A DNA stretch of 40,626 nucleotides from a virus. A program made the translations under genes and the position numbers. Location of the stretch: the IMG/VR virus record IMGVR_UViG_3300017437_000024, positions 1 through 40,626 of that record; one strand, written 5' to 3'. Below, piece after piece: positions 5,983-40,626 of this stretch. The notes below the pieces were generated by a model. It was not told where the DNA came from. It worked only from the letters and a program-made list of their open reading frames with translations, and ran no database searches. Numbering within the stretch: position 1 is the first letter of the stretch; every line of letters begins with the position of its first letter.

Positions 5983-7260
5983 ATGGAAAAAATTACTTGG
6001 AAAACTGAACGCAGGAGGGTTAAAGATCTGATTCCTTATGAATCTAATCCCCGCTTAATGAATGAAAAAGAGGATAAAGATTTAAAAGAATCAATTAAGA
6101 AATTTGATTTAGTAGAGATTCCAGCGGTCAATTTGGATAATATGATTATTGCCGGTCACCAAAGAATAAGGGTTTTAATGGAAGCCGGCCGTGCCGAGGA
6201 AGAAATAGATGTCCGTGTCCCTAGTCAGATGTTAACTGACGGAGAGTTCAAGGAATATCTTTTGAGAAGTAATAAAAATCTAGGCCGATGGGATTGGGAT
6301 TTATTGGCTAATAATTTTGATGAGGCCATGTTGCTTGAAGTTGGTTTTACTGATGCGGAGATGGGTTTAATTAATACTGAAGAAATTGAAAGATTTGACA
6401 TTGTGCCCCAAATTAATGAACAGGCAAATATTATATTGGGGGATATTTATCAGTTGGGAGAACATCGTTTAATGTGTGGTGATAGTACAAAGAAAGAAGA
6501 TGTTATGAAATTGATGAATGGAAAAACAGCTGAGCTATTATTTACTAGTCCTCCTTATGCGGACATGAGAGAATATGAAGGCGGAAAGGATTTAAGTATT
6601 AATAATTTAGTAAATTTTATCTTTTTATTTAGCAACCATGCTAAATATCAAGTAATTAATTTAGGTATTAAAAGACAAAATAATGAGATAATTGAATACT
6701 GGCAAGATTTTATACTAAAAGCTAAGGATTGTGGTTATAAATTTTTAAGTTGGAATATTTGGAATAGAGAGTCGGCTAAAACAATCGGTCAACAAATGGC
6801 CTTTTTCCCCATAGCTCATGAATGGATATTTGTCTTTGGTAAAGAACATAAAAATATTAATAAAACCATAAACAAATCGGAATACACACTTAGGGATAAA
6901 AGAAGAATTAAGAGCAAGCGTCAGAAAAATGGTTTAATGGAATTTACAAGTGTGGGAGATATTTCTAATGATTATACAGAAATGACTACTGTTCTCACTA
7001 TGCAACCAAATTTAGGTGACGAATCTCGTCATAAGCATCCGGCGACATTTCCAGTTTCTCTACCAGAAGAATATATAAAAGCTATGACAAATTTTGGAGA
7101 TATTGTAATTGATCCTTTTCTTGGGAGCGGCACAACTTTAATTGCTTGCGAAAAGACCAAAAGAATATGTTTTGGAATGGAATTAGAACCAAAATATATG
7201 GATGTTATAATTAAAAGGTGGGAATATTTTACTAATGAAAAAGCTGTAAAAATCAATTAA
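5983..7260 (+). CDS. ParB-like domain fused to DNA methyltransferase
   Basis: Residues about 10-110 form a ParB/Srx-like domain (IPYESNPR, IAGHQRI, RSNKNLGRWDWD). The rest is a DNA methyltransferase with TSPPY (about 186-190, catalytic motif IV) before DPFLGSGTT (about 377-385, SAM motif I), the beta-class order used for N6-adenine or N4-cytosine. The target-recognition part lies between them. The fusion is common in phages, where it probably protects DNA from host restriction. No matching restriction enzyme is seen. The methyltransferase half is visibly more A/T-rich than the ParB half, so the modules may have different histories. Confidence 0.9.
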   Translation: MEKITWKTERRRVKDLIPYESNPRLMNEKEDKDLKESIKKFDLVEIPAVNLDNMIIAGHQRIRVLMEAGRAEEEIDVRVPSQMLTDGEFKEYLLRSNKNLGRWDWDLLANNFDEAMLLEVGFTDAEMGLINTEEIERFDIVPQINEQANIILGDIYQLGEHRLMCGDSTKKEDVMKLMNGKTAELLFTSPPYADMREYEGGKDLSINNLVNFIFLFSNHAKYQVINLGIKRQNNEIIEYWQDFILKAKDCGYKFLSWNIWNRESAKTIGQQMAFFPIAHEWIFVFGKEHKNINKTINKSEYTLRDKRRIKSKRQKNGLMEFTSVGDISNDYTEMTTVLTMQPNLGDESRHKHPATFPVSLPEEYIKAMTNFGDIVIDPFLGSGTTLIACEKTKRICFGMELEPKYMDVIIKRWEYFTNEKAVKIN

Positions 7261-8895: not shown

Positions 8896-8904
8896 TGCTA
8901 TAAT
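8896..8904 (+). promoter_or_regulatory. Extended -10 promoter before the portal gene
   Basis: TG-C-TATAAT (8896-8904) is a perfect extended -10 box. It ends 8 bases before the ATG at 8913, so transcription would begin about at the start codon. No good -35 is seen, as is usual for extended -10 promoters. Confidence 0.5.
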
Positions 8905-12379: not shown

Positions 12380-12540
12380 ATGCCTGATCTAGGATTAGGT
12401 GCAATAACAGCGGTTAGTGATTTAACTAACACTGTAAAGACCTACTACGACAGGATGCTTTTGGAAACACTGGACCCTGAAACCAAGTTTTACCAGTTTG
12501 CGGTTAAAAAGCCTTTGCCGAAGGGCGAAGGAAACGCGGT
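12380..12540 (+). CDS. Major capsid protein, exon 1 (N4-gp56 family)
   Basis: The first 53 codons plus two bases of the capsid gene: MPDLGLGAIT, VKTYYDRMLLE and LPKGEGNAV match the N-terminus of N4-gp56-type coat proteins (typically VKTYYDKRLLE...PLPKGEG). The reading frame then breaks from homology at 12540/12541, exactly where a 7-bp P1 helix of a group I intron predicts the 5' splice site (ACGCGGT with GCCGCGT, U-G pair at the junction). Joining 12540 to 13184 makes one 357-codon frame plus stop. Confidence 0.88.
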
Positions 12541-12599
12541 AGTAAAAGATGATTCCTCTTGTGCCGCGTATAAATCTTTTCTAAATACCTTGGAAAATC

Positions 12600-12628
12600 T
12601 TGTTTATTACAATTTGAAGTGGTATAAT
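12600..12628 (+). promoter_or_regulatory. Intron-internal promoter for the LAGLIDADG gene
   Basis: TTGTTT (12600-12605), a 17-base spacer and TATAAT (12623-12628) with an upstream TG. The -10 ends 7 bases before the ATG at 12636, so a leaderless endonuclease transcript is predicted, separate from the capsid mRNA. Confidence 0.5.
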
Positions 12629-12635
12629 GGAATGT

Positions 12636-13127
12636 ATGGACAAGATAACCAGAGGCAAGCTTTCAGATTTTGAGATTGGATATATAGCGGGTTTAGTTGA
12701 CGGTGAGGGTTGTATTGGAATACATAAGCATACAGATAATAGGGGAAAATCAAGATTACATTATTTGTATGTAGTAGTATCAAATAACAATCCAAAATGC
12801 CTAGAATTTCTTAAAAAGAATTTTAATGGTTGGATAATCAAAAGAAGGCAAAAAGAAAATTGGAACATTAATTATAAGTGGGGTTTGAGAAGTGCTAGAG
12901 CCCGACAACTACTTGAAATTATTTATCCACATTTAATTCTTAAAAAAGAACAGGCTTTATTAGGAATAGAGTTTGATAATAATAAGATTAGATATAAATT
13001 ATCTGACGAAGAATGGAACAAAAGAGAATCTTATTATTTAAGGATGCGTCAATTAAATTCTTTATATACTAAAATAAAACCTCATCATTTGAAATTGCAG
13101 CCGCAGAGACTAAACGAAAAGACATAA
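12636..13127 (+). CDS. LAGLIDADG homing endonuclease (intron-encoded)
   Basis: A 163-residue protein with one LAGLIDADG helix (IGYIAGLVDGEGCIGI), followed by an alpha/beta core and ILKKEQALLGIEF, the layout of single-motif enzymes that work as homodimers (I-CreI type). It would cut intronless capsid genes to spread the intron. An in-frame ATG at 12627 would add MEC, but it overlaps the -10 box, so 12636 is preferred. The last codons overlap the catalytic core: the R element is coding, and the stop TAA lies in P8. Confidence 0.9.
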   Translation: MDKITRGKLSDFEIGYIAGLVDGEGCIGIHKHTDNRGKSRLHYLYVVVSNNNPKCLEFLKKNFNGWIIKRRQKENWNINYKWGLRSARARQLLEIIYPHLILKKEQALLGIEFDNNKIRYKLSDEEWNKRESYYLRMRQLNSLYTKIKPHHLKLQPQRLNEKT

Positions 13128-13183
13128 TGAAAATTATGAAGCGATAGTCCGATCTTGCAAGTGATTGCAAGTTAACAAAAATG

Positions 13184-14096
13184 TCAATGGAATCGTCCAC
13201 GACGTCTGGGCTTGGGTCAGAAGGTTACCGCCGGCATTAAGCCATCAGCGAGCGAGCTATCTACGACAAGAGTGTCAGCGAACATTGAAGTCTATGGTGG
13301 TTATGTTTTGCTTGAAGACTTGGTGCAGTTGACTTCGGTTAACGATGTCCTTGATATCGCTACTACCGAGTTGGCTAAGCAAGCGGCCGAAACCTTGGAC
13401 CGAGCCATCATGCACTCCGTCATTTTCTTTGATGATCCGAATACTGCGACCTCAGCTGTTCACATAGTTAAGTCGTCTGCAAGTTTGTTCATTTCAACAA
13501 ACGCATTTGTGGCGAATACCTATAGCAACACCCTGATCGCTGTTTCCGATGTCCGAAGATGTGCGGCGGAATTGAGAAGGCGTAATGCTTTAACCGTTGA
13601 TGGCCAAAACTATATTGGTATCATTCATCCAGTTGTTAGCGAAGATTTGCGTGCAGATGCCACGTGGCAGAACTGGCACCAATACACCACCCCCGAATTT
13701 CTATACAGGGGTGAGGTAGGTAGAGTAGAAGGCGTGCGTTTCGTAGAATCAGTCCTTACTCCGGTATCGGCTGGCTCCGGAAACGGCAATGCTATCTCTG
13801 CTTCTCCCGGTGCTTCTGCGATGGCTTACGGCACGGTAATCTTTGGTCGTGGTTTCTATGGTGCGACAGAGTTGGACGGTGGAGTTAAGACCTTCCTCGT
13901 GGACGGTCCCTCCAAGTCTGACCCATTGAATCAATCCACCACTTATGCTTGGAAGGCAAATTTTGCATCAAAAGTGCTTAATGTGTCTGCCGGCTTGGTG
14001 CTGTGGACTGGTTCCGGTGATACCTTTAGTGGTTCTTCTGTTTCTACTCGTGAAACTGCCGGCTTAACTTTGAGTGCGGTTGCTACCGCTACTTAG
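13184..14096 (+). CDS. Major capsid protein, exon 2 (N4-gp56 family)
   Basis: Starts at the third base of a valine codon after splicing, giving VVQWNRPRRLGLGQKVTAG, then YGGYVLLEDLVQLTSVNDVLD and LAKQAAETLDRAI, diagnostic of the N4-gp56 capsid family (HK97 fold). The full spliced protein is 357 residues, normal for the family. It forms the icosahedral shell with the portal and the scaffold. An in-frame TTG at 13212 could allow unspliced initiation, but the N-terminal arm would be lost. Confidence 0.9.
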
Positions 14097-14137
14097 AGTT
14101 TCTGCTAACGAAAGCATTCTTATGGAAGCTTTGGCTC

Positions 14138-14165
14138 TTGCTTTCTTACTCAATAGAGCTATAAT
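14138..14165 (+). promoter_or_regulatory. Promoter for the free-standing HNH gene
   Basis: TTGCTT (14138-14143), 16-base spacer, TATAAT (14160-14165). Transcription would begin near 14172, inside the 5' arm of the following hairpin. Confidence 0.55.
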
Positions 14166-14211
14166 AGTAAGAGTAGGTGGGAAGCTATCTCACCTACTCG
14201 GAACTATTATG
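14161..14211 (+). promoter_or_regulatory. Hairpin enclosing the HNH start codon
   Basis: ATAATAGT (14161-14168) pairs with ACTATTAT (14203-14210), and GAGTAGGTG (14171-14179) with CACCTACTC (14191-14199), around an 11-base loop. The ATG (14209-14211) lies in the base of the outer stem. A transcript started at about 14172 would lack the outer 5' arm and leave the ATG free, whereas read-through from the capsid gene would hide it. Confidence 0.65.
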
Positions 14212-14616
14212 TTTAAGAAGCATACTAAGGAGTCAAGATTAAAGATAAGTTTGGCGATGAGGGGAAGAAAATTAAGTTTGGAACACCGTCTTAAAATAAG
14301 TAAAAGTCAAAAGGGTAAAAGTTATCATAAAAGATTAAGAAGCGGCGGAAAATCAATTAGTTCATGTGGATATTCTTTGATTTGGAAACCCAACCATCCA
14401 CTTGCACAGAAAAAGGGCTATATCTTAGAACATAGATTAGTTATGTCAGAATATATTGGAAGAAACTTGAAAAGTGATGAGATTGTCCATCATATAAATG
14501 GAAATAAATTAGATAATAGAATTGATAATTTGCAATTATTATCTAAGAGTTGGAAGGGCGGAATTAAATTGAATGCCGAATGTCCGAATTGTCATTATAA
14601 ATTTCATCTTCAATGA
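14209..14616 (+). CDS. HNH homing endonuclease with NUMOD domain
   Basis: A 135-residue protein. The N-terminus has two NUMOD3-like repeats (HTKESRLKISLAMRGRK, LEHRLKISKSQKGKS), DNA-binding modules of homing enzymes. The HNH core follows (EHRLVMSEYIGR, IVHHINGNKLDNRIDNLQLLS) and the tail has CPNC. It is free-standing, just after the capsid stop; I found no second intron around it. Start 14209 was chosen because the upstream frame overlaps the capsid gene and lacks domain content. Confidence 0.85.
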   Translation: MFKKHTKESRLKISLAMRGRKLSLEHRLKISKSQKGKSYHKRLRSGGKSISSCGYSLIWKPNHPLAQKKGYILEHRLVMSEYIGRNLKSDEIVHHINGNKLDNRIDNLQLLSKSWKGGIKLNAECPNCHYKFHLQ

Positions 14617-14693
14617 ATTGTTTGTTTAGATTCGGAAATGACATATAATTAAATAACGAAGCTAAAAGGTCGTTTCCAAATTAAGCCAATAAA

Positions 14694-14912
14694 ATGAATA
14701 AAGCTCAATTAAGTGCGGGTGAAGCATTTGACGATCAAACCGGATTACCTCTCGGAGAGGGTTTTTTGACCTTTCAGAGTTCGGCGGGAAATAGAATTGT
14801 TTTTAATACTCCGGCGGAGTATAACATCTATCGTATAGGTAATCCTGGGCAGTTTAATACGACTCCCGATACTGCCGGAACGGTTAATGACGAAATTCAA
14901 GGCGATAACTAA
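14694..14912 (+). CDS. Hypothetical protein, 72 aa
   Basis: A hydrophilic small protein after the HNH insertion, probably once adjacent to the capsid gene. It has the segment GEGFLTFQSSAGNRIVFNTPAEYNIY, with alternating beta-type residues. No family recognised. AAAAGGTCG lies 22 bases upstream of the start. Confidence 0.55.
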   Translation: MNKAQLSAGEAFDDQTGLPLGEGFLTFQSSAGNRIVFNTPAEYNIYRIGNPGQFNTTPDTAGTVNDEIQGDN

Positions 14913-28722: not shown

Positions 28723-30147
28723 ATGCCATTTCCTTATAACTCAAACGATCAACTATTAACCGAGCAAGCCATTCTAGCCGGTGTGGCTGGGGTTTCTGGC
28801 GGTCAGGGGGTCATCCGAGTTTCTTCTTTGACTGAGGTAACGGTGGCTCTTGAAGGGGATGCTGGAAGTAATAGAGTTTCTGCGATTCAAGGCGATGCTG
28901 GCAACTTAATGGTGTCAGCTAAATCTAACGATGCCGGAACTTTAAGAATGTCTGCCATTGGCGGAACGGCTGGAGATAATGTAATTGTGGGGGGTAATGA
29001 TCAAGCAGTATCAGCTACGGTCAAACAAATCTCGGCAGTTTTATCGGCTTCTGACAATGCACTTTTAGTCCATGCGGTTTCAGAGGGAGCGGGGAGAATG
29101 CAGATATCCGCTAAGTCTAATGATGGTGCGTTGCTAAGAACGTCTGCGGTGCAGGAGGGTGCAGGAGCTTTGATGGTTTCAGCCAAGTCTAATGATGCCG
29201 GAACTTTGAGAATGTCTGCAATCGGTGGAACGGCCGGAGATAATATTATTGTTGATGGAACAGATCAAACTGTTTCGGCTAGAATAAAGCAAATTTCTGC
29301 GGTTCTTTCTGCGTCAGATAACGCTTTTATTGTTCACACAGTTTCCGAGGGTGCGGGCAGGATGCAAGTTTCAGCCAAGTCCAACGATGGTGCCCTATTG
29401 AGAGCGTCAGCGGTTCAGGATGGTGCGGCCGCCTTGAACGTATCAGCGAAATCAAATGACGGTGCTTTGTTAAGAACGTCTGCCATTCAAGATGGGGCGG
29501 CGGCCTTAAATGTCAGTGCCAAGTCTAATGATGCGGGATTATTATTGGTTTCGGCTAAACAGGGAGATGCCGGATTGTTGCTGGTTTCTGCAAAGCAAGG
29601 TGATGCCGGTCTATTTAGGGTCTCGTCTTTTCAGGGCGATGCGGCCAATCTTAATGTTTCAGCAAAATCTAATGATGGAGCACTTTTAAGAACCTCGGCT
29701 GTTCAAGACGGAGCGGCGGCACTAAATGTCTCTGCAAAATCTGACAGTGCCAATCTTTTAAGGACCTCGTCCTTTGAAAGTGCTGTTACTACTAGCACTG
29801 GTGGTCTTAGTTTCTTTGCTACTTCAGCCGGTATAGCTCAGACTTCAGCCATTAAGTCTTCTGGCGGTAGATTATATGGTTATCACTTAGAACATAGTGC
29901 CGGAGTTGACCAATTCTTAGTGGTGTTCAATGCCTCGGCTACTACCTCGGTAACTTTAGGAACAACTGTGCCCGATCTTTATTTGGGCGTGCCTGCGGGA
30001 ACTGGTGCTAATGCTGGTGCCGGTGCTGTTACCAATCAGAGTCCCGGCATTGGTTTTTCCAATGGAATTGTTGTGGCAGTGGTTTCCGCTCCTGGTGGTA
30101 ATACCGCTGGTGCGTCGGCCATGCGTCTCAACTTGTTCTATGGATAA
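28723..30147 (+). CDS. Tail fibre-like protein with 12-residue repeats
   Basis: 474 residues. Residues about 45-345 consist of roughly twenty imperfect 12-residue repeats of the type x-S-A-x-x-x-D-x-x-x-L-x (VSAKSNDGALLR, TSAVQDGAAALN), fit for a beta-helix or a triple-stranded fibre. A larger unit of 88 residues is duplicated (28921-29184 and 29185-29448). The C-terminal 110 residues are a beta-barrel like the previous protein. There are no cysteines, consistent with a virion fibre. It may be the host-contacting fibre or spike. Confidence 0.65.
   Translation: MPFPYNSNDQLLTEQAILAGVAGVSGGQGVIRVSSLTEVTVALEGDAGSNRVSAIQGDAGNLMVSAKSNDAGTLRMSAIGGTAGDNVIVGGNDQAVSATVKQISAVLSASDNALLVHAVSEGAGRMQISAKSNDGALLRTSAVQEGAGALMVSAKSNDAGTLRMSAIGGTAGDNIIVDGTDQTVSARIKQISAVLSASDNAFIVHTVSEGAGRMQVSAKSNDGALLRASAVQDGAAALNVSAKSNDGALLRTSAIQDGAAALNVSAKSNDAGLLLVSAKQGDAGLLLVSAKQGDAGLFRVSSFQGDAANLNVSAKSNDGALLRTSAVQDGAAALNVSAKSDSANLLRTSSFESAVTTSTGGLSFFATSAGIAQTSAIKSSGGRLYGYHLEHSAGVDQFLVVFNASATTSVTLGTTVPDLYLGVPAGTGANAGAGAVTNQSPGIGFSNGIVVAVVSAPGGNTAGASAMRLNLFYG
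28921..29448 (+). repeat. 264-bp tandem duplication within the fibre gene
   Basis: The unit 28921-29184 is repeated at 29185-29448 with the same 88-residue plan (SNDAGTLRMSAIGGTAGDN ... SEGAGRMQ). The copies differ at many third positions, so the event is not recent or has been edited under selection on the protein. Confidence 0.8.
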
Positions 30148-37028: not shown

Positions 37029-37442
37029 ATGCCATATAAAGACTTAGAAAAAAGGAGAGTCTCTGCAAGAAAAACATATTATAAACACAGAGAACAACGT
37101 TTAAAGGATATGAAATTATTTAGATTAAAAAATCCTAATTATGATAAAGAGTATAAAAAAGGTAATGAAAAATTTTTAGAATATAGAAGAAATTATTATT
37201 ACAGAAATATAGAAAAAAGCAGAGCTAGATATATATTAAATAACATGATTGATTCAAAAAAAATGATAAGAGGAAGTTGTAGTATTTGTCAATTACCTAA
37301 CGCAGAAGCTCATCATACTGATTATTCTAAGCCCTTAAAAGTTATTTGGTTTTGTAGAAATCATCACTTGGAACTACATAGGAATGGTATAATTAAAACA
37401 TGCCTCAGTCGGGGCGTAAAAAGAGTAGCAAAGCTAGCGTAG
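37029..37442 (+). CDS. HNH endonuclease in the lysis module
   Basis: 137 residues. The basic N-terminal half carries K/R/Y-rich helices (YKHREQRLKDMK, YRRNYYYRNIEKSRARY) for DNA contact. The C-terminal half has CSICQ, HHTDYSKPLKVIWFCRNHHLELH, the well-known small HNH fold. It lies between the endolysin and a holin-like gene, so it appears inserted. Its stop falls in the AGCT-type intergenic repeat. Confidence 0.8.
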   Translation: MPYKDLEKRRVSARKTYYKHREQRLKDMKLFRLKNPNYDKEYKKGNEKFLEYRRNYYYRNIEKSRARYILNNMIDSKKMIRGSCSICQLPNAEAHHTDYSKPLKVIWFCRNHHLELHRNGIIKTCLSRGVKRVAKLA

Positions 37443-40486: not shown

Positions 40487-40626
40487 ATGAAAACTAAAAT
40501 ACAAATTCAATCTATATTCGGAGATGTATTGTTTGAGTTGGAAAAAGAAAACAATACTGTTAGAGACACCCTTGAAGAAGCGATTAGAAATTCTGCCAAT
40601 CTTGACTCTGCCGACCTTCGCTCTGC
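40487..40626 (+). CDS. Pentapeptide-repeat protein, 5' part (continues at base 1)
   Basis: ATG 40487 gives MKTKIQIQSIFGDVLFELEK and continues in frame into base 2 of the window. The last 99 bases repeat positions 1-99. With the 3' part it is one intact gene. Confidence 0.8.
   Translation, partial: MKTKIQIQSIFGDVLFELEKENNTVRDTLEEAIRNSANLDSADLRS
40528..40626 (+). repeat. Terminal direct repeat, right copy
   Basis: Identical to 1-99; lies inside the pentapeptide gene rather than between genes. Confidence 0.95.

Follow-up and report, generated by a model that had tools for sequence, protein, structure and literature searches.

Whether an RNA hairpin covers the start codon of a homing endonuclease gene in transcripts that read through from the major capsid gene, and whether an internal promoter relieves that cover, is the question raised by a locus in the 40,626-nucleotide stretch of viral DNA analysed here (the window; IMG/VR record IMGVR_UViG_3300017437_000024). 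The window carries an exact 99-nt terminal direct repeat (1–99 = 40528–40626), which points to a complete or circular assembly. In addition, it contains a tandem 264-nt duplication with 72% identity (28879–29406) within the 474-aa ORF 28723–30147, and a fusion of ParB-like nuclease and DNA methyltransferase domains at 5983–7260, according to PHROG matches.

The capsid gene and the HNH gene behind it

The genes of the locus are as follows:

12380–12540, + strand: major capsid gene, exon 1; the spliced translation (...GEGNAVQWNRPRRLG) matches intronless relatives
12541–13183, + strand: putative group I-like intron in the capsid gene, with a LAGLIDADG-type ORF at 12627–13127
13184–14096, + strand: major capsid gene, exon 2; 66–76% identity to relatives, with Pfam Phage_capsid_4 and Phage_capsid_3
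14209–14616, + strand: HNH_3/NUMOD3 homing endonuclease gene, assigned by domain matches, ATG at 14209
14694–14912, + strand: small conserved gene, directly 3' of the RNA element described below in several relatives

In-frame excision of 12541–13183 restores a full-length capsid protein like that of the intronless relatives. The excised segment has P7-like signals (AGACTA at 13107 and TAGTC at 13145), and the exon end GCGGU can pair with an intron GCCGC; no Rfam intron model matched 12541–13183. The capsid gene appears, from these signals, to be split by a group I-like intron, splicing being putative. The best PHROG match of the intron ORF was 5046, named 'HNH endonuclease', and its assignment to the LAGLIDADG type was made by eye from the motif IAGLVDGEG.

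The downstream ORF gave profile matches to HNH_3 (E 2.7e-12) and NUMOD3 (E 1.8e-6), and this pairing of an HNH catalytic domain with a DNA-binding module identifies it as a probable free-standing homing endonuclease gene. A consensus Shine-Dalgarno sequence is absent about 8 nt before ATG 14209, where only CGGA lies upstream, and most genes of this phage likewise have none. HNH homologues from other phages have varied N-termini and give no verdict on the start codon. In the same open frame, 26 nt past the capsid stop, there is another ATG at 14122 which is mostly unpaired (0.70), and the protein might begin there, the hairpin then being coding sequence. However, 14122–14208 is part of the RNA that is conserved in relatives without this gene, and the 29 additional residues match no family; we regard a start at 14122 as very improbable.

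A conserved RNA element after the capsid gene

The capsid relatives were taken from IMG/VR, together with one contig from a genome bin assigned to Nanoarchaeota. This contig (L054; JAGLZG010000245.1) bears a phage capsid gene with the same RNA element and is possibly a virus or misbinned. In the relatives without the HNH gene, three stem-loops (SL-A, SL-B and SL-C) directly follow the capsid stop. Their counterparts in the window are:

14132–14161, + strand: SL-A, conserved post-capsid stem-loop, with the loop GCUUUCUUACUCAA, which holds the supposed −35 box
14160–14211, + strand: predicted masking hairpin, at the position of SL-B, with arms specific to this genome
14634–14678, + strand: SL-C, the third stem after the capsid gene, with the HNH gene between it and SL-B; it holds a further TATAAT at 14644

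SL-A is common to five lineages, namely the window, the L003 group, L006, L009 and L054, and in the latter four it follows the capsid gene with no HNH gene behind it. The loops are 14–16 nt long (CUUUAUAACUCAA, CUUUCUUACUCAA, GUUUAUUACUCAA and CUUUAUAAAUCAGC), while the closing stems vary by lineage. When the arms of the different lineages were paired with one another, strong pairing was confined to the diagonal of the matrix, except between the similar L003 and L009, and the true assignment of arms was the sole one among 120 to reach its score. The chance that a random position bears such a stem was 0.002–0.01 per lineage. Since MAFFT alignments including the window placed gaps in the arms, the window was kept aside as a test sequence. 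In the alignment without it, 98% of the cells pair and slid or shuffled controls were far lower, although the alignment had been trimmed and given a hand-drawn structure based on the same sequences, an advantage over the slid controls. All five of the stem pairs tested covary, with changes on both sides; in the alignment without the window, 7 pairs show such two-sided changes. A covariance model built from the four other sequences found its best match in the window at 14134–14168 (E 0.004). In each relative genome it found a single strong copy, in every case behind the capsid gene, and weak matches elsewhere (E 0.5–0.8) only in the 1.3 Mb bin of L054. For SL-B and SL-C, the arms also fitted their own partners best overall.

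No relevant Rfam family scored above its gathering score in the window or the relatives, and no tRNA was found. We regard the covarying SL-A, with its conserved CUUUMUUACUCAA-like loop, as a new candidate RNA of these phages, with a possible role in capsid expression. For the phage, the conserved RNA may protect the mRNA 3' end, cause partial termination or offer a protein-binding site in the SL-A loop. A candidate pseudoknot between this loop and a downstream UAAGCC, noticed by eye, is unproven.

The HNH gene occupies the junction between SL-B and SL-C, where the relatives have a gap of 0–3 nt. In no capsid relative that was read does an HNH gene come directly behind the capsid gene, so that presence and absence are seen at the same site, the relatives lacking the gene having kept the flanking RNA. 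Scans of viral contigs, less the records very close to the window, with hairpin and loop patterns for siblings bearing the HNH gene returned unrelated places only, apart from the already known L009/L050. The alignment also places about 18 extra nucleotides between the SL-A loop and SL-B in the window alone. This segment serves as the masking hairpin's 5' arm and is nearly the reverse complement of the HNH start and the sequence just before it. Given that it was found only here, the masking part belongs to this genome alone; on this comparison, it would either have come with the endonuclease gene or have been rebuilt after insertion, two histories that one genome cannot separate.

The hairpin over the start codon and the supposed promoter

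The initial annotation proposed that the HNH start codon lies at the base of a hairpin, and the predicted fold bears this out. The segment 14160–14211 folds with a minimum free energy of −27.4 kcal/mol (z −6.6), a value that none of 200 shuffles equalled, and the larger region 14120–14240 also stands apart from its shuffles (z −5.0). The hairpin has 21 pairs, 9 in an outer helix (14160–14168 with 14203–14211) and 12 in an inner one (14171–14182 with 14188–14199), and the AUG at 14209–14211 is predicted to pair with the UAU at 14160–14162. Comparative support for the masking helix is nil, as a single genome with the HNH gene at this place was found. The same segment was also considered as an intrinsic terminator and rejected: it has no U-run, GGAACUAUUAUG comes next, and it is absent from the terminator listing.

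The cost of opening the start was calculated as the energy needed to force positions −9 to +13 around the ATG to be unpaired. In read-through RNA it was 9–10.6 kcal/mol (10.4 in the ranking, second highest of 49 starts), and in an RNA starting at 14172 it was 3.4–5.4 kcal/mol, close to the genome median of about 4.6 kcal/mol. With opening costs of about 10 against 3–5 kcal/mol, masking of the HNH start in capsid read-through transcripts is plausible on thermodynamic grounds. It must be noted that a high opening cost is by itself no proof of repression: the start of the capsid gene costs 9.0 kcal/mol and that at 37029 costs 11.1 kcal/mol.

The second part of the proposal was that a promoter, TTGCTT-16-TATAAT, starts RNA inside the stem and so removes the masking arm. 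Its elements are:

14138–14143, + strand: supposed −35 box, TTGCTT, matching 3 of 6 positions, inside SL-A; not supported
14160–14165, + strand: supposed −10 box, exact TATAAT hexamer, at chance frequency and without TG extension

The letters, coordinates and 16-nt spacer are correct; the promoter itself is not supported. TATAAT occurs 27 times on the + strand, with about 30 copies expected from base composition, and 16 of the 27, the copy at 14160 included, have a −35 match of at least 3. A consensus promoter scan returned 4 promoter-like sites against 7.1 in shuffles and omitted the site at 14138–14165, the consensus being possibly not the phage's own promoter type. As TTGCTT lies within the conserved SL-A, its letters are explained without a promoter; the supposed −10 box overlaps the SL-A stem and is also the complement of the HNH start region. 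More convincing promoter-like sites of this phage read TGnTATAAT or TGnTAAAAT and lie 12–14 nt before the ATG of genes 8913, 23471 and 28384. TGnTATAAT-like boxes at 8899, 23459, 28372 (TGATAAAAT) and 37388 lie 12–15 nt before an ATG, a spacing that suggests near-leaderless transcripts. The form of the sites before genes suggests that the real promoters of the phage are unlike the 14160 site, which has no TG. An internal promoter that releases the block is not supported, and the sequence offers little reason to expect a start at 14172.

With these results, the reading towards which we incline, with somewhat better than even confidence, is that the HNH gene was inserted in a conserved post-capsid RNA whose remodelled second hairpin covers its start and keeps output from the capsid mRNA low. 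Phages of this group keep a structured RNA in the interval from the major capsid gene to the small gene that follows, and a free-standing HNH/NUMOD3 gene would have entered this intercistronic RNA past its second hairpin and before its third. The second hairpin would have been lengthened on both sides, by about 18 nt on the 5' side and their complement on the 3' side, until its base covered the HNH start. Read-through mRNA from the capsid gene would then be translated poorly into endonuclease, so that the element is carried on an abundantly made transcript while its own output stays low. What the sequences show is the place of the insertion, the conserved RNA and the predicted hairpin; the poor translation is inferred from them. 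We consider doubtful a stronger version, in which the endonuclease gene took over the post-capsid RNA: its insertion would have extended the second hairpin over its own start and tied endonuclease translation to the condition of the capsid mRNA, and the SL-A loop might serve as a switch or for binding.

The hairpin might also be an ordinary post-capsid hairpin, an mRNA stabiliser or remnant terminator in which the pairing of the AUG is a by-product with no regulatory role. Almost all relatives, distant ones too, have a strong hairpin behind the capsid stop, and in several it comes with a U-run (L041, L057, L059, L066 and Bacillus phage Pascal, L073). In L005 and L040, long hairpins occur past the capsid gene with no HNH gene at all, so hairpin length need not depend on the endonuclease. 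This explanation is possible but rather unlikely, since none of the other four lineages with SL-A, SL-B and SL-C has an equivalent of the outer helix that reaches the AUG, and the 5' arm of this helix is additional sequence. That the RNA from about 14172, freed of the 5' arm, is the sole source of endonuclease while read-through transcripts stay masked, as in T4 I-TevI, is quite unlikely, although the geometry fits, opening becomes cheaper by about 5–7 kcal/mol and so no costlier than for the genome's average gene, and the precedent is known (PMC2988022, section 12). Besides the weakness of the promoter, the short RNA still holds the AUG in a weak local hairpin (UAUGUUU-AAG-AAGCAUA; unpaired probability about 0.04–0.10), and in this predicted fold the loss of the 5' arm lowers the energy cost only, the AUG itself remaining paired.

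Relation to known endonuclease genes and hairpins

The insertion in a conserved post-capsid RNA that we favour has several partial parallels. Strong hairpins directly past the capsid stop, as in the five relatives with a U-run, resemble that of the window, which differs in having no U-run and an endonuclease gene next to it. A free-standing endonuclease gene beside the major capsid gene is also known in T4, where segD lies between gene 23 (major capsid) and gene 24; however, segD is of the GIY-YIG type and in opposite orientation (PMC2988022), whereas the gene studied here is of the HNH type and in the same orientation. In Aeromonas phage 25, a very stable hairpin lies directly 5' of the start of seg43(25), with the RBS outside the hairpin (PMC2988022), while here the AUG is within the hairpin base.

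The closest logic is that of T4 I-TevI, I-TevII, I-TevIII and segB and of mobE of Aeromonas phage Aeh1, in which hairpins shut off the RBS of transcripts from upstream and are bypassed by promoters (PMC2988022, section 12; PMC3014915). As in those genes, the initiation region here would be closed, by prediction, by a stable hairpin in long upstream transcripts. In the T4 and Aeh1 systems, the Shine-Dalgarno sequence is masked and late promoters were mapped or predicted (PMC2988022; PMC3014915); here there is no clear Shine-Dalgarno sequence, the pairing takes in the AUG itself and the supposed promoter is not supported. The likeness to the T4 endonucleases is therefore apt as a working model for the closed initiation region and does not extend to the bypass. 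On the modelled folds, the case is similar in logic to the I-TevI/mobE type and is not classed as a member of it, and the promoter-switch logic of I-TevI/segB and Aeh1 mobE is here possible but unproven. If the masking is true, hairpin control of homing endonuclease genes reaches beyond T4-like phages, to an unrelated phage group in which Shine-Dalgarno sequences are rarely used.
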